A DNA stretch of 64,000 nucleotides from Geothrix limicola (GTDB taxonomy: Bacteria; Acidobacteriota; Holophagae; Holophagales; Holophagaceae). This document shows positions 26,519 through 56,246 of the stretch, in pieces (position 1 is the first letter of the stretch; each line of letters begins with the position of its first letter). The notes under the pieces were generated by a model, which saw nothing but the letters and a program-made list of their open reading frames with translations, was not told where the DNA came from and searched no databases. The stretch is taken from the NCBI RefSeq assembly GCF_030268085.1, contig NZ_BSDE01000001.1, positions 310,001-374,000 of the forward strand, read 5' to 3'. The position numbers and the translations under genes are program-made.

Positions 26519-26608
26519 TGGCGGAGAGAGAGGGATTCGAACCCCCGAACAGGTTTCCCCGTCTCCGCATTTCGAGTGCGGTGCCATCAACCACTCGGCC
26601 ATCTCTCC
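26519..26608 (-). tRNA. tRNA-Ser (anticodon CGA)
   Basis: 90 nt including an encoded CCA. The acceptor arms GGAGAGA and TCTCTCC pair, with G as discriminator. The anticodon arm reads GCACTCGAAATGC, giving CGA for the UCG codon. The long variable arm and the T-loop GTTCGAATC are typical of class II tRNA-Ser. Confidence 0.95.
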
Positions 26609-47791: not shown

Positions 47792-47877
47792 GGTGTCGCC
47801 GGATCCATCAGAAGCCGCACCAATGCTGAGTCTGGATGGTGCCGATGCCGTCCGGTAGAATCAATGCCTGGCCGAAA

Positions 47878-47923
47878 GGAGGTTGCGATGAAGACGATAT
47901 CTGCGCTCGCTGAACCTCCGTCG
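47878..47923 (+). promoter_or_regulatory. SD/anti-SD leader structure, copy 1
   Basis: GGAGGTT at 47878-47884, the ribosome site of the leader ORF, is complementary to AACCTCC at 47913-47919 inside the ORF. The latter belongs to a 12-nt block GAACCTCCGTCG (47912-47923) that recurs exactly in copy 2 at 52906-52917. A DNA palindrome GTGCGT/ACGCAC follows. Confidence 0.65.
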
Positions 47924-47944
47924 TGCGTCACGCACCTGGGCTAG
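47888..47944 (+). CDS. Leader peptide with EPPS motif, copy 1
   Basis: 18 codons, MKTISALAEPPSCVTHLG, with AAAGGAGGTT ending 3 nt before the ATG, one of the strongest ribosome sites in the window. EPPS occupies codons 9-12, exactly as in the second leader (minus strand, 52888-52941), although the rest differs. A -10-like TAGAAT lies about 30 nt upstream. The porin gene starts 106 nt after its stop. The Pro-Pro pair could slow ribosomes. Translation and function are inferred. Confidence 0.65.
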   Translation: MKTISALAEPPSCVTHLG

Positions 47945-48050
47945 CCTTCTCGCGCAATCGCAGCGTGGCGGCCTGATTTGAGCGTGTTCCGTGCCTCGGC
48001 CTTCACGGCTTCGTCACGGCTCGGACCTTCCTTCCTGTCACGGTGTTTCC

Positions 48051-49376
48051 ATGTCCTGCCCTCGATCGACCTTTCGTGTCTCGCTGATCTCCCTCTTTCT
48101 GGCTTGTGGTGCGGGCCTGATGGGCCAGACTGCCGATCCGGCCCCCGAGGCCTGGAACCTCCACGGCCAGGCGACGGTCGTCACGCAGTCGCACGGCGAT
48201 TTCACGTCTCCCTACCAGGGACCCAACTCTCTGCGTCCGGGCGCCGAGCGGGCCACGTCGTTCACCACGACGCTCATGGCGGGGTGGCGGCCCTGGCAGG
48301 GCACCGAGGCCTATGTGGATCTGGAAGGCGCCGCAGGGAAGGGCGTCAGCAGCGTGCTGGGGCTGGCGGGGGCGCCCAATGGCGAGACCTACCGCGTGGG
48401 CAATCCGGATTTCCGCGCGGCCGTGGCCCGCGTGCTGATCCGCCAGACGCTCAACCTGGGCGGCGAGTCCCAGAAGGTCGAAGATGATGCGCACCAGGTG
48501 GCCGGGGTGCGGGATTCGCGCCGGATCGTTCTCCACGTCGGCAAGTTCAGCGTGATGGATGTCTTCGATGCCAACGCCCACGCCCACGATCCGCGCGCCC
48601 AGTTTCTCAACTGGACTCTGATGGGCCACGGCGCCTGGGACTATCCCGCCGACACCCGCGGCTACACCTGGGGCGGCGCCGCCGAGCTGTACTGGGACGC
48701 CTGGGCCCTCCGCTACGGCCGTTTCGCCGAGCCGCTGGAGGCCAACCAACTGGCCATGGATCACGGCTTCGCGCGGGCCCACGGCGACGTGGCCGAAGCG
48801 GAGCACGATCATGTCCTCGGCGATCAGCCGGGCGCCGTGCGGGTGATGGTCTTCCGCAACACCACGCGGATGGGGGACTACCGCCAGAGCCTCGCCGAAT
48901 CGCCCGCCGCGCCGGATGTCACCGCCACCCGTGCCTACGGCCGCGTGAAGGAGGGTTGGGGCCTCAACCTGGAGCAGGGCCTCACGGCGGATCTGGGGGC
49001 TTTCGCACGCTGGAGCTGGAGCGACGGTCGCACGGAATCCTGGGCCTTCACCGAAGTGGATCGCTCCGTCTCCGCGGGGTTCACCTGGAAGGGAAGCGCC
49101 TGGGCCCGCTCGCAGGATCGCCTGGGCGCCGCCTTCGTACAGAACGGCCTGAGCCCCGATCACCGCGATTACCTGGCGGCCGGCGGCCTCGGGTTCCTGC
49201 TGGGGGATGGTCGCCTGAACTACGGCTCCGAGCGGATCTTCGAGGCCTACTACGCCGCGGCGATGGGGCGCTTCCTCACCCTTTCCCTGGACGCCCAGCG
49301 CATCTGGAACCCCGGCTACAACCGGGACCGCGGCCCTGTGAACCTCCTGGCCCTGAGGCTGCACGCGCAGTTCTGA
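48051..49376 (+). CDS. OprB-like carbohydrate-selective porin
   Basis: 441 residues from the ATG at 48051; signal peptide FRVSLISLFLACGAGLMGQ. AWNLHGQATVVTQSHGDFTSPYQG and the C-terminal NPGYNRDRGPVNLLALRLHAQF, with terminal Phe, are typical of OprB-like barrels; RIVLHVGKFSVMDVFDANAHAHDPRAQFLNW is a conserved inner region. His-rich loops (AEAEHDHVLGD) are notable. It would let a small solute cross the outer membrane. It shares a leader type with the convergent ABC importer, so both may serve one substrate. Confidence 0.85.
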   Translation: MSCPRSTFRVSLISLFLACGAGLMGQTADPAPEAWNLHGQATVVTQSHGDFTSPYQGPNSLRPGAERATSFTTTLMAGWRPWQGTEAYVDLEGAAGKGVSSVLGLAGAPNGETYRVGNPDFRAAVARVLIRQTLNLGGESQKVEDDAHQVAGVRDSRRIVLHVGKFSVMDVFDANAHAHDPRAQFLNWTLMGHGAWDYPADTRGYTWGGAAELYWDAWALRYGRFAEPLEANQLAMDHGFARAHGDVAEAEHDHVLGDQPGAVRVMVFRNTTRMGDYRQSLAESPAAPDVTATRAYGRVKEGWGLNLEQGLTADLGAFARWSWSDGRTESWAFTEVDRSVSAGFTWKGSAWARSQDRLGAAFVQNGLSPDHRDYLAAGGLGFLLGDGRLNYGSERIFEAYYAAAMGRFLTLSLDAQRIWNPGYNRDRGPVNLLALRLHAQF

Positions 49377-49390
49377 TCCCGCCTTAGTGA

Positions 49391-49543
49391 AGATAAAAAA
49401 TGTAACCGCGAATGGCGCGAATGCCCGCTTCGCGGGCCGCGAAAGGGGTACCAGAACGGCCGTGGCGCCTTGATCCAGAACGACCCCATTCGCGTGGCTT
49501 GCGAAGCAAACCTTTCGCGTCATTCGCGGTTCAATGTTTTTAA
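49391..49543. repeat. Imperfect palindromic repeat element, copy 2
   Basis: Same architecture as 40611-40759, better preserved: ends AACCGCGAATGGCGCGAA and the inverted TTCGCGTCATTCGCGGTT within A/T tails, plus internal stems CCCGC/GCGGG and GGCTTGC/GCAAACC. It lies between the convergent porin and ABC genes and may work as a bidirectional terminator. Confidence 0.82.
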
Positions 49544-49570
49544 GGCACCTCGGTCTGGCACGAGTTCGGC

Positions 49571-49635
49571 CTACTCCGGAGTCAAGACGCCTCGGTCTTC
49601 GCGGAAGGCGAAGAGTTCGCCGAAGCGGCCCCACG
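49571..49635. repeat. 65-bp duplicate of the ABC ATPase gene 3' end
   Basis: 61 of 65 bases match 49733-49797, the last codons and stop of the ABC ATPase gene. The copy lies 97 bp past the true end. Between them is an 8-bp stem CACGCGAC/GTCGCGTG at 49674-49694. The rest of 49377-49732 holds no gene. Confidence 0.85.
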
Positions 49636-49732
49636 GGGCCCCCTCCGCGACCGAGCGAAGCGAGGAGCGGGAGCACGCGACTGAATGTCGCGTGCGATCG
49701 GGGCGGTAGTCGGGTGGGGCCTGGCGCTGCTG

Positions 49733-51034
49733 CTACTCCGGCGTGAGCACGCCTCGGTCTTCGCGGAAGGCGAAGAGTTCGCCGAAGCGGCCCCACGTGA
49801 CCAGGGTCTCGAAGGTCTGTTCGGGGTTCTCCATGGGCAGGCGCTGCTGCAGCTCGGAGAGGAGTTCGTTCTCCTTGAGTTCGCCGTGGTGCAGGTCGAT
49901 GAGCTCCTGCACCAGGCGGAAGAGGCGCAGTTCGAGGAGCTGGGCCTTCCAGATGTCCTTGCGGTCGTCCATGTTGGCGCGGATGAAGCGCTGGCCCAGG
50001 GCCGTGAGGATCACCTGGCGCTTGGGCGTGTCGACGAAGTCGAGCATCTCGGCGCCCTTCACGGAGGCCAGCACCTTCTCGAAGGTCACGTGGGTGGCCG
50101 TGGCCACCTGGAAGAGATCCGAGGTGCCGCCCTGGGTCTCCAGGTATTCAAGCAGACCCAGGATGTCCGAAGAAGGCGCGTTGGGCAGGGGTTCCACCAG
50201 GTCCACGAGGAGGCTGGGCTCGGGGGCGCTCACCTCGATGTCGGGCAGCTCGGCGCTGGTGATGATGTCGTGCAGCTGGTCCACCAGGCGGAGGAACTCG
50301 GGGCTGCGCATGTCGCGAGGCCGGGGCAGGGGGTTCTCCACGATGGTTCGCACGCGGCCGGGATTGGCCGACAGCACGACGATGCGGTCGGCCATGTAGG
50401 CCACTTCCTTGATGTCGTGGCTCACCATGAGGATCGACGAGGGGTTGCGCTCGGCGTCGTCCCAGATGTCGAGGATTTCGGCGCGGAGGCCTTCCGCCGT
50501 GAGGGCGTCCACGTGGCTGAAGGGCTCGTCCATGAAGAGGATCTCGGGATCCACGCTGAGGGCGCGGGCCATGCCCACGCGCTGCTTCATGCCGCCGGAA
50601 AGCTCGCGGGGATAGGCTTCCTCGAAACCCTCAAGGCCCACCAGGCGGATGGCGCGATGGGCCTTGGCCTTGATGGTCTCGTCGTCCAGACCCTGGGCCT
50701 GGAGCACGGTCTTCACGTTGGCTTCCACCGTCATCCAGGGGTAGAGCGCGAAGTTCTGGAAGACGATGGCCACGCCGGGGTTGAGGCCCTCCATCTTTTC
50801 GCCGTGGTAGAAGGTCTTGCCCTTCGTCGGCTTGATGAGACCCGCGAAGATGCGCAGGATGGTCGACTTGCCGCAGCCCGAGGGGCCGATGAGGCAGACC
50901 ACCTCGTTGGCGCGGATGTCGAGGTTGATGTCTTCCAGCACGCGCAGGGCGTGGCCGGTCTCCCGGTCGAAGGACTTCTGGATGCCCTTCAGTTCGCAGA
51001 TGACTTCGTGAGTGGCGTGGATGGCGTGCTTCAT
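49733..51034 (-). CDS. ABC transporter ATPase, NitT/TauT type, with C-terminal AAA-associated domain
   Basis: 433 residues. GPSGCGKST near residue 45 is Walker A, LSGGMKQRVGMARAL the signature and ILFMDEPFSHVD Walker B. The N-terminal 260 residues are the nucleotide-binding domain; the remaining 170 (from SDILGLLEYLETQGG on) form an AAA-associated, winged-helix-like domain found in a subset of these transporters. It lies 7 bp after the permease gene. No periplasmic binding protein is in the window. Confidence 0.9.
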   Translation of the reverse strand: MKHAIHATHEVICELKGIQKSFDRETGHALRVLEDINLDIRANEVVCLIGPSGCGKSTILRIFAGLIKPTKGKTFYHGEKMEGLNPGVAIVFQNFALYPWMTVEANVKTVLQAQGLDDETIKAKAHRAIRLVGLEGFEEAYPRELSGGMKQRVGMARALSVDPEILFMDEPFSHVDALTAEGLRAEILDIWDDAERNPSSILMVSHDIKEVAYMADRIVVLSANPGRVRTIVENPLPRPRDMRSPEFLRLVDQLHDIITSAELPDIEVSAPEPSLLVDLVEPLPNAPSSDILGLLEYLETQGGTSDLFQVATATHVTFEKVLASVKGAEMLDFVDTPKRQVILTALGQRFIRANMDDRKDIWKAQLLELRLFRLVQELIDLHHGELKENELLSELQQRLPMENPEQTFETLVTWGRFGELFAFREDRGVLTPE

Positions 51035-51041
51035 GGCTGCC

Positions 51042-52793
51042 TCACTTCGACAGGGAATAGTGGGTCTCGGCGATCTTGTAGAGCGGCTTCCAGACCAGGC
51101 GGTTGAACAGCACCACAGTGCCGGCCAGGACGAGCGTGGAGGCCGCCAGCAGCGGGAAGTTCCGCGATTCGCCGGCTTGGCTCACGATGGCGCCGAGGCC
51201 GAAGGTCTGCAAGGTGGGGCCGCTGATGTTGTAGTACTCGGAAACGATGCTGGCGTTCCAGGCGCCGCCTGCCGCCGTGAGGCAGCCGGTCACCAGGTAG
51301 GGGAAAATGGCGGGCAGGTAGAGGTTGCGGAAGCGCTGCCAGCGGCTGAACCCGAAGGCCGTGCCCACTTCGCGGAGGTCGCTGGGGATGGCGCTGGCCC
51401 CGGCGATGACATTGAAGAGGATGTACCACTGGGTGCCCAGCAGCATGAGCACGATGCTGCCCCAGCCCAGGCCGATCTTGAAGGAGGCGAGGATCGCCAC
51501 CACCACGGGGAAGAGCATGGGCGCGGGGAAGGAGGCCGCCACCTGGACGATGGGCTGGAAGATGCGGGACAGGCGCTGGGACAGCCCGATGGCGAGGCCC
51601 GCGGGCAGGGTCCAGCAAAGGCCGATGAGGATCGAGGCCATCACGCGGGAAAGCGTGAGGCCCGCGGCCTTCAGCAGGGTCCACCAGGCGCCGGAGTGGA
51701 GGCGGTTCAGGAGATGCACCACGCCGAAGCCGCCCAGCACCAGGAAGCCCGAGAGGATGATGAGTGCAACGAGAGCGAGCAACGGTGCCACATGGGCGGC
51801 CCTTTCGGCACCCTTGTCCCCCTGGGGTTTTTCCTTCGCCGGATGGCGGTGCTGCTGCTTCCGGCGCCGCTTCGCGCGCCAGCGATCCCAGCGGCGGATG
51901 AGGCGCGATCCGCGGATGAGGTTGAGGAACCAGCTCTGCGAATCGGCGTTCTGGACCGTGTCCTCGATGCGGAAGCGCTGCGCCCAGACGACGATGGGCC
52001 GCCAGAGCACCTGGTCGAGCAGCACGATCATGATGATCATCGCCGCCACGGCGCAGAGCTGGGCCCGCACGTCGTGATGTTCGACGGCCATGCTCATGTA
52101 CGAGCCCAGGCCCGGCACACGGAAATCCTTGTCGCCCAGCTTGAAGGCCTCTACCAGCATGAGGAAGAACCAGCCGCCGGCCATGCTCATCATGCTGTTC
52201 CAGGCCAGCCCCGTCGTGGCGAAGGGCAGTTCGATCCACTTGAAGCGCTGCCACCAGTTGAAGCGGTACACGGTGCCGGCCTCCTGCAGCTCGGCGGGCA
52301 CGCTCTTCAGCGAGTGGTAGAGGCTGAAGGTCATGTTCCAGGCCTGGCCTGTGAAGATGGCGATGATGGCCGTGAGTTCGATGCCCACATTGCTGTGGGG
52401 GAAGGCCGCCACCAGGGCGAGCATCAGAGGCACGATGAAGGTCATCACCGGGATGCTCTGCAGGATGTCCAGGAGGGGCACCAGTAGCCGCTCGGAGCGG
52501 GCGTCCTTGGCGGCCCAGTAGGCGTAGGCGAGGGTGAAGAAGAACGAGATGAGGTAGGCCGCCAGGCCCCGCATCATCGAGAAGAAGGTGTATTTGGGAA
52601 GCGCCATCGGCGAGAGGTCGATCTCCAGCACGGGGCGTTGGATATCGGCCCATTGCCGGCCCAGGAGGATCAGCCCGTAGAGCATGCCAAAGGCGGCGGC
52701 GACGAGGAGCAGGTCCACCCAGCGCCGTCGCCGCAGGGGCGCGAAGAGGGCGTTGGCCTGCCCCCACATGGTGTCGAGAAAGCGGTGCATCAT
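51042..52793 (-). CDS. Fused double ABC permease
   Basis: 583 residues with about 12 membrane helices. Two EAA-loop motifs are visible, EAGTVYRFNWWQRFKWIELP near residue 170 and EVGTAFGFSRWQRFRNLYLP near 480, so two permease units are fused around a basic linker (RAKRRRKQQHRHPAKEK). Such fusions act as the whole membrane part of the importer with the ATPase dimer. Nitrate, sulfonate or bicarbonate-type substrates are common for this group; the real one is unknown. Its mRNA starts with the EPPS leader. Confidence 0.88.
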   Translation of the reverse strand: MMHRFLDTMWGQANALFAPLRRRRWVDLLLVAAAFGMLYGLILLGRQWADIQRPVLEIDLSPMALPKYTFFSMMRGLAAYLISFFFTLAYAYWAAKDARSERLLVPLLDILQSIPVMTFIVPLMLALVAAFPHSNVGIELTAIIAIFTGQAWNMTFSLYHSLKSVPAELQEAGTVYRFNWWQRFKWIELPFATTGLAWNSMMSMAGGWFFLMLVEAFKLGDKDFRVPGLGSYMSMAVEHHDVRAQLCAVAAMIIMIVLLDQVLWRPIVVWAQRFRIEDTVQNADSQSWFLNLIRGSRLIRRWDRWRAKRRRKQQHRHPAKEKPQGDKGAERAAHVAPLLALVALIILSGFLVLGGFGVVHLLNRLHSGAWWTLLKAAGLTLSRVMASILIGLCWTLPAGLAIGLSQRLSRIFQPIVQVAASFPAPMLFPVVVAILASFKIGLGWGSIVLMLLGTQWYILFNVIAGASAIPSDLREVGTAFGFSRWQRFRNLYLPAIFPYLVTGCLTAAGGAWNASIVSEYYNISGPTLQTFGLGAIVSQAGESRNFPLLAASTLVLAGTVVLFNRLVWKPLYKIAETHYSLSK

Positions 52794-52887
52794 GGCCGTT
52801 CCGGAGGAGCGGACGCGGCGCGCGGGTGCGGGCCGGCATCCCGTTCAGGGTGCGGATTCGGGGAGCGAAAGAGCGGAGGATGCCGCC

Positions 52888-52941
52888 TCAGCGGGCGGCG
52901 CGACTCGACGGAGGTTCGGAGAAGTCGGCTTGCTGTCCCAT
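52888..52941 (-). CDS. Leader peptide with EPPS motif, copy 2
   Basis: 17 codons, MGQQADFSEPPSSRAAR, with AAAGGAGGTT ending 2 nt before the ATG. EPPS is at codons 9-12, as in copy 1. The stop lies in a GCCGCC/GGCGGC stem, followed by a C-rich, G-poor stretch before the permease ATG 94 nt downstream. An upstream TTGACC near 52998 may be its -35. Confidence 0.65.
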   Translation of the reverse strand: MGQQADFSEPPSSRAAR

Positions 52942-52950
52942 GGAACCTCC
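52906..52950 (-). promoter_or_regulatory. SD/anti-SD leader structure, copy 2
   Basis: On the minus strand GGAGGTTC (ribosome site, from 52950) can pair over 8 bp with GAACCTCC in the conserved block GAACCTCCGTCG (52917-52906). Distance from the start codon to the block is 24 nt, identical to copy 1. Confidence 0.65.
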
Positions 52951-53084
52951 TTTCCGCCTTCTAGGCCAAGGTCAGTCTGCCCTTCGGCCCCAGCCCGGTC
53001 AACCCAGAGTACCTTCTCGGAAGGCCCCGGCGGCCTCACCATGGATTGTTCACATGGGAGTCACAAGCATGGGCAAGGGCGGTC

Positions 53085-56000
53085 ATGGCCACCTCTGACG
53101 AGCGGGTGCTCGCCCTGGCCGTGGCCCGTGGACTGCTTGAGCCCGGCGAGGTCCACGGCGCCGAGCTGGGAGAGCTCGTGTCTTCCGGGCGTCTGTCCGA
53201 GGCCGACCGGCACCTGCTGGAGCAGGACCTGGCGGATCTGGAGGCGGACGAAGCCAGCCACTGGTCCATGGAAATCACGGCCCAGGCCCCCACCCATCCG
53301 GATTCGGACTTCACCCATCCCGGGCCTCCGACGCCCATGTCCGACCCCTCCATGCCCACCAAGGGCTTCCGCCAGGGCGGCGTGTTCCGGGCCCAGACCC
53401 TGGAGCGCTGGGGCCGTTTCGAGCACCTCGAACTCCTAGGCGAAGGCGGCATGGGCCGCATCTTCAAGGCCGTGGATCCGCGCCTCCGGCGAGATGTGGC
53501 CTTGAAACTGCTGCGCCGCGACGATCCGGATCTGATCCAGCGCTTCCTGCAGGAGGCCCAGCTCCAGGCCCGGGTGGATCATCCCAACGTGTGCCGCGTC
53601 TACGAAGTGGGCGAATGGCGTGGCCAGCCCTACATCGCCATGCAGTTCCTTCGGGGCGAGACACTGCAGAAAGCCGCCCCGACTCTGCCCCTGGAAGCTC
53701 TGCTCCGGCACATGGTCGAGGTCTGCGAAGGCGTCCACGCGGCGCACCGGGTGGGCCTGGTCCACCGCGATCTGAAGCCGGCCAACCTGATGATCGACCG
53801 CCTGGAGGACGGCTCCACCCGCGCCTGTGTGCTGGATTTCGGCCTGGCCCGCGGCGCCGAGGGCGCGGGGCTCACTGAGACGGGCCGGGTGATGGGCACC
53901 GTGAGCTACATGTCCCCCGAGCAGGCGCGAGGGCAGACGGCCCTGCTGGACCGCCGCTCCGACGTCTACTCGCTGGGCGCGACCCTCTACACGCTGCTGA
54001 CCGGCGCGCCGCCCTTCGGTGGCGACGGGCTCGAATGCATGGGACGCATCGTGAAGGATGATCCGGTGCCGCTGCGCCGGAAGATCCCCACCCTTCCGGC
54101 GGATCTCGACACCGCCGTGCTCACCTGCCTGCAGAAGGATCCCCGCAAGCGCTACACCTCGGCCCGGGCCCTCGGCGAGGACCTGCAGCGCATCCTGGAC
54201 GGCGAGCCCATCCAGGCCCGCGCCGCCACGCCGCTGGAACGGCTCGCGCACTGGGCCCGCAAGCACAAGGTGCTCGTCTCGGCTTCGGCGGCGGTGTTCC
54301 TCTCCATCGTGATCTTCGGGGGCTTTGCCGTGCGGGAGCGCCTGCGGGCCAGCGCCCGGGCCGCCCACGCCCAGCGCTTCGCCCAGGCGGCGGAGCGGAT
54401 CGAGGCCCTGGCGCGCTACCTGCGGCTGCAGCCGGCGCGGGATCTGACGCGGGATCAGGCTGATTTGCGAGCCCGCGTGGAGGCGCTGTCTCGGGAGGTG
54501 CTCGCGGCGGGCCCCCTCGCGGAAGCGCCGGGCGCCTACGCCCTGGGGCGTGCCCGCCTGGCCCTGGATGATCCCGCCGGCGCCCGCGCCCAGCTGGATC
54601 GGGCCTGGGCCATGGGTTTCCACGCACCCGAAGCGGCGCATGCCCTGGGGCGCGCCCTGGCGGCGATCTACCAGGTCGAACTCGGAAAGGCCTATGCGCT
54701 GCCGGATCCAGATCTGCGGCAGAAGCGCTTGGACGATCTGAAGAAGACCCTGCGGATGCCCGCCGCGGATTGGCTGCGACGCGGCGCCGGCGCCAGCCTG
54801 GAGCCGCCCGCCTTCCGCGCGGGCCTGCTCATGCTCATGGAAGGCCAGCCCCATGCCGCGGCAAAGCTGGCCCGCGAGGCCCAGGCTCAGGCTCCCTGGT
54901 TCTACGAGGCCCTGCGGCTGGAGGCCGAAGCCTGGCTGGCGGAAGCCCACGGCGCGCCCACGGCCCGCGAAGCCGAACCGGCCATCCAGACCGCGGGCCG
55001 CCTGCTGGCGGAGGCCGAGCTGCGCGCCCCCTGCGACGTGGACCTGCTGCGCCTCGACATGCGGCGCTGGCAGGAGGTGGTGGCCCTGGGCTGGCAGTCC
55101 GGCGCCGATCCCAAGGTCCCCGTGCTGGCGGAAGTGGCGGTGGCGGATCGCTGGGCCCAACTCGAACCCACCGCCGCCCAACCCCTCGCCTGGCGCGCCC
55201 GCGCCCGTGGTGAGATGGCGCGGTACCTGGCCTTGAGGGAGATCGACCCGGCCGCCTGGTTGGCTCAGGCCAAAGCGGATGCGTCGGAGGCCATGAAGCG
55301 GGACCCGAAGGAGGTCGAGGCCTGCACGGCCGAGGCTTCTGTATTGAGGACGGAAGGCATTCGTAAGCTAAGCCGGGGCGAGGATCCCACGACGCGTTTG
55401 AAGGAAGCCATCGCGGTGTCGGATATAGGTCTGCGGCTGGACCCCGGCCACATCGTCCTTCGGAACATTCGCTACTCGGCCCTGCTGCTTTGGATTGATG
55501 GCACTCGCCTGAGGGGCACCTACGATGCGGCTATTGTGGCGCCCTACATTCGGGAGGCGCGGGAAATGGCGGATGCCCACCCGGAAGAGGCCTACTTCCT
55601 CGCAAATCTCGGGGGCTTGGCACAGGCAGCAGCTCGGGCAGAGGTCGCTTCCGGTGGGAATCCCACGGTAGAAGCTGAAGAAGCCGTGCGAGCCTATGAA
55701 GCGGGATTGAAAACACAGCCTCGTCATGTCGGATTTCACCGAGGCATCCTTCTGGCTCGTGCGGCTCAGGCCAAGGCTCTCGCTCGGGATAAGCAGAATC
55801 CAAAAACCAGGATTGATCAGGCGCGATCTGCCTTCGAGAAAGCCCAGGAAGCCCACGTGCCTATGGCGACCCTTGCACCCTATTTTATGGATGCGCTTGT
55901 ATCAGGAGCCACGTTCCTCGCAGAACAACAAGGGGATGCATCCCCGTATCTAGAAGAGGCCGACAATCTCTTGCCGCACCTCGTAGCCACACCGGAAGAT

Positions 56001-56246
56001 CCGGTGGAACTGGGATCGATCAGGCTTCGTTACTTGGCTCTGGTGCTACGTTTGGGGTATTCACCACAACCCGCTCAATTGAAAAATCGGGGTGAGGGGC
56101 TCGCAAAAAAGTTGCTCCGGTTGAATCCGATCGATCCAGATTTCTGGACCGCCTTGGCCCAGTTTCACGAAGCATGCGGAAACCCTGCTGCGGCAGCCAG
56201 AGAGCGGGCGCACAGCAGGGTTCGGGACTTCAAGAAGGTGAATTGA
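53085..56246 (+). CDS. Transmembrane serine/threonine protein kinase with TPR-like C-terminal region
   Basis: 1053 residues from the ATG at 53085; the longer TTG frame has no support. After an acidic N-terminus the Pkn-type kinase domain covers about 115-380: LGEGGMGRIFKAVDP, VALKLLRR, HRDLKPANLM near 226, DFGLARG and MSPEQARG are all intact. A membrane helix (VLVSASAAVFLSIVIFGGFAV) is near 400, followed by a long helical, TPR-like region. From about codon 740 to the end the GC content and third-position bias fall markedly, as if the 3' third came from another source. Confidence 0.88.
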   Translation: MATSDERVLALAVARGLLEPGEVHGAELGELVSSGRLSEADRHLLEQDLADLEADEASHWSMEITAQAPTHPDSDFTHPGPPTPMSDPSMPTKGFRQGGVFRAQTLERWGRFEHLELLGEGGMGRIFKAVDPRLRRDVALKLLRRDDPDLIQRFLQEAQLQARVDHPNVCRVYEVGEWRGQPYIAMQFLRGETLQKAAPTLPLEALLRHMVEVCEGVHAAHRVGLVHRDLKPANLMIDRLEDGSTRACVLDFGLARGAEGAGLTETGRVMGTVSYMSPEQARGQTALLDRRSDVYSLGATLYTLLTGAPPFGGDGLECMGRIVKDDPVPLRRKIPTLPADLDTAVLTCLQKDPRKRYTSARALGEDLQRILDGEPIQARAATPLERLAHWARKHKVLVSASAAVFLSIVIFGGFAVRERLRASARAAHAQRFAQAAERIEALARYLRLQPARDLTRDQADLRARVEALSREVLAAGPLAEAPGAYALGRARLALDDPAGARAQLDRAWAMGFHAPEAAHALGRALAAIYQVELGKAYALPDPDLRQKRLDDLKKTLRMPAADWLRRGAGASLEPPAFRAGLLMLMEGQPHAAAKLAREAQAQAPWFYEALRLEAEAWLAEAHGAPTAREAEPAIQTAGRLLAEAELRAPCDVDLLRLDMRRWQEVVALGWQSGADPKVPVLAEVAVADRWAQLEPTAAQPLAWRARARGEMARYLALREIDPAAWLAQAKADASEAMKRDPKEVEACTAEASVLRTEGIRKLSRGEDPTTRLKEAIAVSDIGLRLDPGHIVLRNIRYSALLLWIDGTRLRGTYDAAIVAPYIREAREMADAHPEEAYFLANLGGLAQAAARAEVASGGNPTVEAEEAVRAYEAGLKTQPRHVGFHRGILLARAAQAKALARDKQNPKTRIDQARSAFEKAQEAHVPMATLAPYFMDALVSGATFLAEQQGDASPYLEEADNLLPHLVATPEDPVELGSIRLRYLALVLRLGYSPQPAQLKNRGEGLAKKLLRLNPIDPDFWTALAQFHEACGNPAAAARERAHSRVRDFKKVN

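Follow-up and report, generated by a model that had tools for sequence, protein, structure and literature searches.

A candidate leader-peptide element whose Pro-Pro codons can mask its own Shine-Dalgarno sequence, upstream of putative divalent-metal transport operons in Geothrix

What function could two short open reading frames (ORFs) have that share a ribosome-binding site and a coding block, and that each stand in front of a membrane-transport operon? Both lie in a stretch of 64,000 nucleotides from Geothrix limicola (contig NZ_BSDE01000001.1, positions 310,001 to 374,000 of the forward strand), hereafter the window, to which all coordinates refer. Leader ORF 1 (plus strand, 47888-47944, ATG at 47888) has 18 codons, reads MKTISALAEPPSCVTHLG and lies 5' of an OprB-like porin gene. 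Leader ORF 2 (minus strand, 52941-52888, ATG at 52941) has 17 codons, reads MGQQADFSEPPSSRAAR and lies 5' of an ATP-binding cassette (ABC) permease gene. An earlier note on the window had described these two ORFs, each encoding E-P-P-S, and its coordinates were confirmed. The Shine-Dalgarno (SD) sequence AAAGGAGGTT is found just 5' of the ATG in both copies (47875-47884, plus; 52953-52944, minus), and an identical block, GAACCTCCGTCG, which contains the E-P-P-S codons, lies 24 nt past the A of the start codon in both (47912-47923, plus; 52917-52906, minus). The SD can form the 5' arm of a hairpin and the block its 3', anti-SD arm: in leader 1, GGAGGTTGCGA pairs with TCGC-TG-AACCTCC, and in leader 2, GGAGGTTC pairs with GAACCTCC. 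From comparative sequence analysis, we propose that these elements are probably cis-acting leader-peptide attenuators that control a Mn2+/Mg2+ uptake regulon consisting of the ABC permease/ATPase, the OprB-like porin, joined in some relatives by an NRAMP-related transporter.

The pattern of SD, start codon and spaced block occurs exactly twice in the 4.23-Mb host genome (G000) and in 43 of 77 genomes of the Holophagaceae/Geothrix family, with no matches to the reversed control pattern in either search. When the spacer between ATG and block was allowed to vary from 12 to 42 nt, only 21 nt was found, apart from 18 nt once and a single 33-nt match; the latter is a genuine diverged member 5' of an OprB gene and was recovered by a covariance model. 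A scan of 84,980 GTDB species yielded 40 matches, 38 of them in Holophagaceae/Geothrix/Holophaga/Acidobacteria. The other two (Flavobacteriales, Streptomyces) were discarded as the start of longer, unrelated reading frames. Chance or base composition as the origin of the pattern is ruled out by the reversed-pattern controls and the genome-wide scans. The covariance model, which matches the window at 47871-47923 (plus, porin side, 62.4 bits) and 52906-52957 (minus, permease side, 59.7 bits), raised the count to 63 of 77 family genomes and 9 of 11 genera. Applied to a phylum sample of 297 genomes, 272 of them outside the family, it gave only three weak matches among those 272 (E 0.002-0.007), none of which is an SD-led upstream ORF (uORF) before a transporter. 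Block, spacing and EPPS are therefore conserved in relatives, the point on which the earlier note had staked its idea.

To characterise the constraint on the peptide, we used 61 distinct copies, which also underlie the pairing and target counts below. In every copy, an [E/D]PP motif is in frame with the start codon behind the SD, at about codons 8-11 of the leader ORF. The 122 proline codons include 15 synonymous differences, and all still encode proline: the first codon is CCC for CCT once, and the second is CCG, CCT, CCC or CCA. At position +4, 55 copies have Ser and the other six Leu. The loop-length variants of 18 and 33 nt (usual length 21) are multiples of three and keep the frame, and in L183 a TTG start offsets a 1-nt insertion and again preserves it. 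The residues flanking the motif, the C terminus and the length (13-23 amino acids) vary freely, and the leader peptides are hydrophilic. Judged by these patterns of substitution, the leader ORF is a coding sequence.

The conserved codons also take part in RNA pairing. In the majority hairpin, GGAGGTT(GCGAT) pairs with (ATCGC)-TG-AACCTCC and both the SD and the start codon are buried; in the form with a two-base spacer, GGAGGTTCG pairs with CGAACCTCC. Helix cells are paired in 86.9% of cases, compared with 32-58% when the partner strand is slid, and 15 cells are changed on both sides, compared with 6.3 in shuffles, which is good rather than absolute evidence, as the shuffles take no account of relatedness and the structure had guided the alignment. 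Covariation is seen in the inner helix, where G-C is replaced by U-A in 10 sequences, and next to GGAGG, where U-A is replaced by C-G in four sequences through the synonymous change of GAA to GAG. In the minimum free energy fold, GGAGG is fully paired with the proline codons in 55 of the 61 copies, and the mean folding energy of the leader hairpin is -18 kcal/mol. By folding energy alone the two window copies are unremarkable against shuffles (z -2.0 and -0.7). The G of GAA is invariant, though it is bulged (unpaired) in the majority form. By these comparative criteria, the E-P-P codons double as the strand that hides their own SD and start codon. The compensatory changes, together with the retention of the proline codons, bear out the suggestion of the earlier note that RNA pairing and peptide are constrained at once.

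The position of the element relative to promoters and genes fits a leader. A promoter-like CTGGAT-N18-TAGAAT (47832-47861, plus) lies about 15-20 nt 5' of the SD of leader 1, and TTGACC-N17-CAGACT (52974-53002, minus) lies 5' of that of leader 2. Across the family, a TTGAC box is found within 75 nt upstream of 48 of 61 leaders, compared with 1 of 61 control windows, and about 44-55 nt 5' of the SD in 44 of 61; porin-type (OprB) leaders carry CTGGACA...TAGGAT in its place. The element would then be the 5' leader of the transcripts, with roughly 15-20 nt between the predicted 5' end of the RNA and the SD. On the other side, the leader stop codon is separated by about 106 nt from the porin ATG (48051) and by about 94 nt from the permease ATG (52793), in agreement with the roughly 100 nt given before, and an inverted repeat directly follows the block in both copies, again as claimed. 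The repeat of leader 1, GTGCG-TCA-CGCAC (47923-47935, plus), was identified by sequence inspection, and its sequence is not kept in relatives. That of leader 2, GCCGCC-CGCTGA-GGCGGC (52899-52882, minus), has the leader stop codon in its loop and belongs to a hairpin type common across Geothrix permease leaders. The spacer of permease leaders is C-rich (0.42 C versus 0.29 G), which is compatible with Rho, without being evidence of Rho action.

Next, we focused on the genes behind the leaders. The first gene 3' of leader 1 encodes the OprB-family porin (PF04966; 48051-49376, plus), and the first gene 3' of leader 2 encodes a duplicated-permease ABC subunit with two BPD_transp_1 domains (51042-52793, minus), whose partner is an ABC ATPase with a C-terminal AAA_assoc_C domain (PF09821; 49733-51034, minus). 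Among the 61 copies, 40 precede a duplicated-permease ABC gene, 13 an OprB-like porin gene and five an NRAMP-like (NRMT) gene. One of the three remaining copies (L068) precedes OprB. Another (L067, G069:C213), which has the 18-nt loop, stands about 690 nt 5' of a second NRAMP-like paralogue (44% identity), from which a small ORF separates it; the third (L195) is at a short contig end and has no target assigned to it. All copies with an assignable downstream gene thus head one of three operon types: ABC permease, OprB-like porin or NRAMP-related. The NRAMP-like gene comes after the porin in five genomes (G031, G036, G037, G044 and G047), has its own leader in two (G025 and G059) and replaces the porin in G042. 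In G057, a single leader heads a permease-ATPase-OprB row, which supports the earlier proposal that porin and ABC form one system. The earlier note had called the two ORFs unlinked; they instead share an origin, as paralogous leaders whose neighbouring operons are functionally linked. The central idea, a leader-type element, is largely upheld and extends to a family of SD-led short ORFs 5' of transporter operons.

The earlier note had proposed no class of ligand. What might these operons transport? The third target is an Nramp protein (PF01566) that is nearest to the Mg2+/Mn2+ transporter EleNRMT (7QIA, E 1.9e-62); the next-best PDB chain scores 4e-14 and canonical MntH about 1e-13. It has the full NRMT metal-site signature, with NDAGG and GTTIAPWM as in 7QIA; this signature consists of D..G in helix 1 and, in helix 6, T, A for A, M and W for H (PMC8806188). 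Mg2+ transport by the NRAMP-like target is a prediction from this signature. The gene next after it encodes a MgtE_N-CBS-PRC protein, and MgtC is found beside the permease in G276 (L229) and, in G072 (L231), 5' of the operon formed by leader and NRMT gene. CorA and MgtE were not found in the window genome; among the 77 family genomes, CorA is present in 33 and MgtE in one. The MgtE_N and MgtC neighbours, and a window genome in which neither CorA nor MgtE was found, suggest Mg2+. A complementary distribution of CorA/MgtE was considered as proof of Mg2+ and dropped, as it is not clean: some leader-bearing genomes have CorA. Plasmid-borne homologues of the ABC genes adjoin CDF and MgtC (Azospirillum), VIT (Paraburkholderia), a carbohydrate porin (Methylobacterium) or a canonical DPGN/MPH Nramp (Thermus); the neighbourhoods in Pantoea and Legionella are uninformative on substrate. 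Such gene contexts in other phyla favour a metal over nitrate or sulfonate as substrate. The porin/ABC/NRAMP set is most likely, by homology and gene context, a divalent-metal import system, and the imported metal is probably Mn2+ or Mg2+, both being candidates.

Ribosome-read metal leader peptides are known mainly from enterobacterial Mg2+ genes. In mgtL and corL, a stem can sequester the SD of the uORF, which requires ribosomes to load while transcription is under way (PMC11552253, PMC11282234), and in mgtL, corL and mgtQ, acidic and proline codons of the uORF slow elongation at low Mg2+, with Rho or refolding relaying the outcome (PMC11552253, PMC11282234, PMC8092293). These systems provide our working model for the Geothrix leader. 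Like mgtL, which precedes mgtA in Salmonella and E. coli, it is a short uORF with acidic and proline codons early in its sequence and a sequesterable SD, 5' of what is here a putative divalent-cation importer. Unlike mgtL, it has another sequence, phylum and set of targets and no Rfam match, and its diagnostic codons are themselves the anti-SD, a tighter arrangement; where mgtL has EPDP at codons 2-5, the Geothrix leader has E-P-P at about codons 9-11, often with no second acidic residue. It resembles corL, upstream of corA, where the uORF lies in stem A, its translation is inversely linked to transporter expression and Rho is involved (PMC11552253); corL, however, has few acidic or proline codons and is not homologous, and corA is no target here. 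A further parallel is mgtQ in the mgtC-mgtB intergenic region, an 8-amino-acid ORF that follows AGGAGG and uses destabilising D/E codons to switch RNA stems that control a Mg2+ transporter (PMC8092293), although mgtQ frees the ribosome-binding site of mgtB, whereas the site sequestered here is the leader's own. CutF/CruR likewise combines an upstream ORF, a proline-rich stalling-like motif, an SD-hiding stem-loop and metal-gene targets, and CruR uses Rho (PMC9973294); in contrast, the CutF protein binds Cu, is larger and exported, and has a signal sequence, CxxxC and the motif at its C terminus. The M-box (RF00380) shares leader control of NRMT-type transporters (PMC4072509), but it is a riboswitch aptamer and was found in none of the 77 family genomes. 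By analogy, the Geothrix leader would work like MgtL/CorL/MgtQ or CutF/CruR as a form of uORF attenuation while being a member of none of them, and our literature search found no published description of such an [E/D]PP leader.

On this model, transcription would expose the SD first, and a ribosome would load before the anti-SD, made of the E-P-P codons, is synthesised. A ribosome that slows or aborts at the acidic-Pro-Pro codons would hold the anti-SD arm open, leaving SD and start codon free; by simple arithmetic, a P site near codon 10 would place it about 27 nt from the start codon, clear of both. If it instead runs through and leaves, the hairpin would close and the leader would go untranslated. 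The difference in occupancy would be relayed to the transporter gene about 100 nt further on, most likely through Rho in the C-rich spacer or through translation. We infer the metal response, the pausing and the involvement of Rho from the enterobacterial analogues. The probable signal would be low metal, because elongation through [E/D]PP would become inefficient, as in MgtL; the proposal does not fix the sign of the effect or the identity of the metal. More tentatively, the leader is possibly a self-gating, ribosome-based sensor of divalent metal that arose independently in Acidobacteriota, in which the position of one ribosome would decide whether the next can start. Its pause codons would be its own anti-SD, one leader type would control a complete porin/ABC/NRAMP import system, and the orphan ABC family with a PF09821-type ATPase and a duplicated permease would gain a metal substrate.

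Other explanations account for parts of these observations. A stable hairpin, averaging -18 kcal/mol and with compensatory changes, is what would be expected of a pure RNA element, that is, an SD-sequestering thermometer or a protein- or ligand-binding structure in which the short ORF is incidental. This is quite unlikely given a motif that is in frame in 61 of 61 copies, codon-position-specific variation, frame-preserving loops, a rescued start codon and a G of GAA that is invariant though bulged; moreover, the window copies exceed shuffles in folding stability by no more than a modest margin (z -2.0, -0.7). The opposite emphasis, in which the ORFs are no leaders and encode small functional peptides such as regulators of the adjacent transporter, would fit the coding constraint and the membrane transporters that always adjoin. 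As only [E/D]PP(S/L) is constant while the C terminus, the length (13-23 amino acids) and all else change, the sequences are hydrophilic and the conserved proline codons double as anti-SD, we consider it very unlikely. Proline attenuation, or a leader serving a NitT/TauT-type ABC transporter for an anion or organic substrate instead of a metal, might be read from the Pro-Pro codons and from the ATPase sequence, which resembles nitrate/sulfonate types. It appears unlikely, as there are only two proline codons, the same leader heads an NRAMP-type metal transporter and the ABC genes have metal-transport neighbours in several phyla.

A reading closer to ours is a Mg2+-specific sensor of the MgtL kind, based on intrinsic ribosome destabilisation: ribosomes would drop off at the acidic-proline codons when Mg2+ is low, the leader would refold and transcription would continue. 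The acidic and proline codons early in a short uORF, with acidic pairs (DEPP or EEPP) in a subset of copies from several genera, an uORF SD within a stem like stem A of mgtA/corA (PMC11552253), the MgtC and MgtE_N neighbours, the failure to find CorA or MgtE in the window genome and the lack of an M-box in the family all favour it. This type of destabilisation tends to require several acidic residues (PMC11282234), and at least two closely spaced ones, as for strong destabilisation, are not found family-wide. As multiple acidic residues are not constant while [E/D]PP is, Pro-Pro pausing would, by analogy, apply more generally as a cause than classical destabilisation. With CorA in about half of the family and ABC neighbours elsewhere of the Mn type (DPGN/MPH Nramp in Thermus, VIT), we hold a Mg2+-specific sensor to be doubtful. 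Several points also weigh against the attenuator of metal uptake that we prefer. Many copies (MKTISALAEPPS, MSSGSSIAEPPS), among them window copy 1, have a single acidic residue, and classical intrinsic destabilisation may not be applicable to these, which counts against the Mg2+ sensor as well. No NRMT was found in the window genome, and G061 has the permease without a leader. RNAalifold found no structure common to the spacers of the three target types. The NRMT homologue of Acidobacterium capsulatum mainly rescued Mn2+ rather than Mg2+ uptake (PMC4072509), which makes a ribosome-based Mg2+ mechanism uncertain.

An Rfam search around both elements gave nothing at the gathering threshold and, up to E 5, nothing but weak, unrelated matches; no metal riboswitch was found near permease homologues of other acidobacterial families. 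[D/E]PP uORFs were found neither before ABC or Nramp genes on plasmids of other phyla nor 5' of about 50 out-of-family permease genes (40 further regions included), except in G131, from another acidobacterial family. There, an SD-led uORF, MSEPGSSRTTEPPSPLTIVND (L219:8724-8791), with in-frame GAACCTCC sits about 119-150 nt 5' of the permease and was missed by the family covariance model. It is a likely variant, and it is suggestive only of an ancient or transferred homologue of the leader. Three reduced genomes of the family itself (G001-G003, 0.9-1.2 Mb; L194-L196) retain the permease leader, with a diverged flank and the ATG moved by one codon.

Elsewhere in the window, no gene for a solute-binding protein adjoins the PF09821-type permease/ATPase pair (49733-52793). 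The region between the convergent porin and ABC operons (49376-49733) contains repeated sequences, and in several relatives (L069, L073, L075 and L079) a 20-residue repeat of the ATPase C terminus (residues 414-433) is found about 100 nt past the ATPase stop codon. A large Ser/Thr protein kinase gene (53079-56246, plus) is divergent from the ABC operon, a position kept in several Geothrix genomes. The sole Rfam match of the window is a tRNA gene (26522-26608, minus).

As cultured Geothrix strains carry the element, the hypothesis is directly testable. If it is true, a conserved, non-homologous version of ribosome-read metal control in Acidobacteriota would show that this trick evolved more than once, here in compact form, with pause codons that also serve as the strand blocking the SD. 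It would also give a testable Mn2+/Mg2+ substrate to a widespread ABC family now annotated as nitrate/sulfonate transporters, and the same metal substrate could be assigned to the OprB-like 'carbohydrate' porin.

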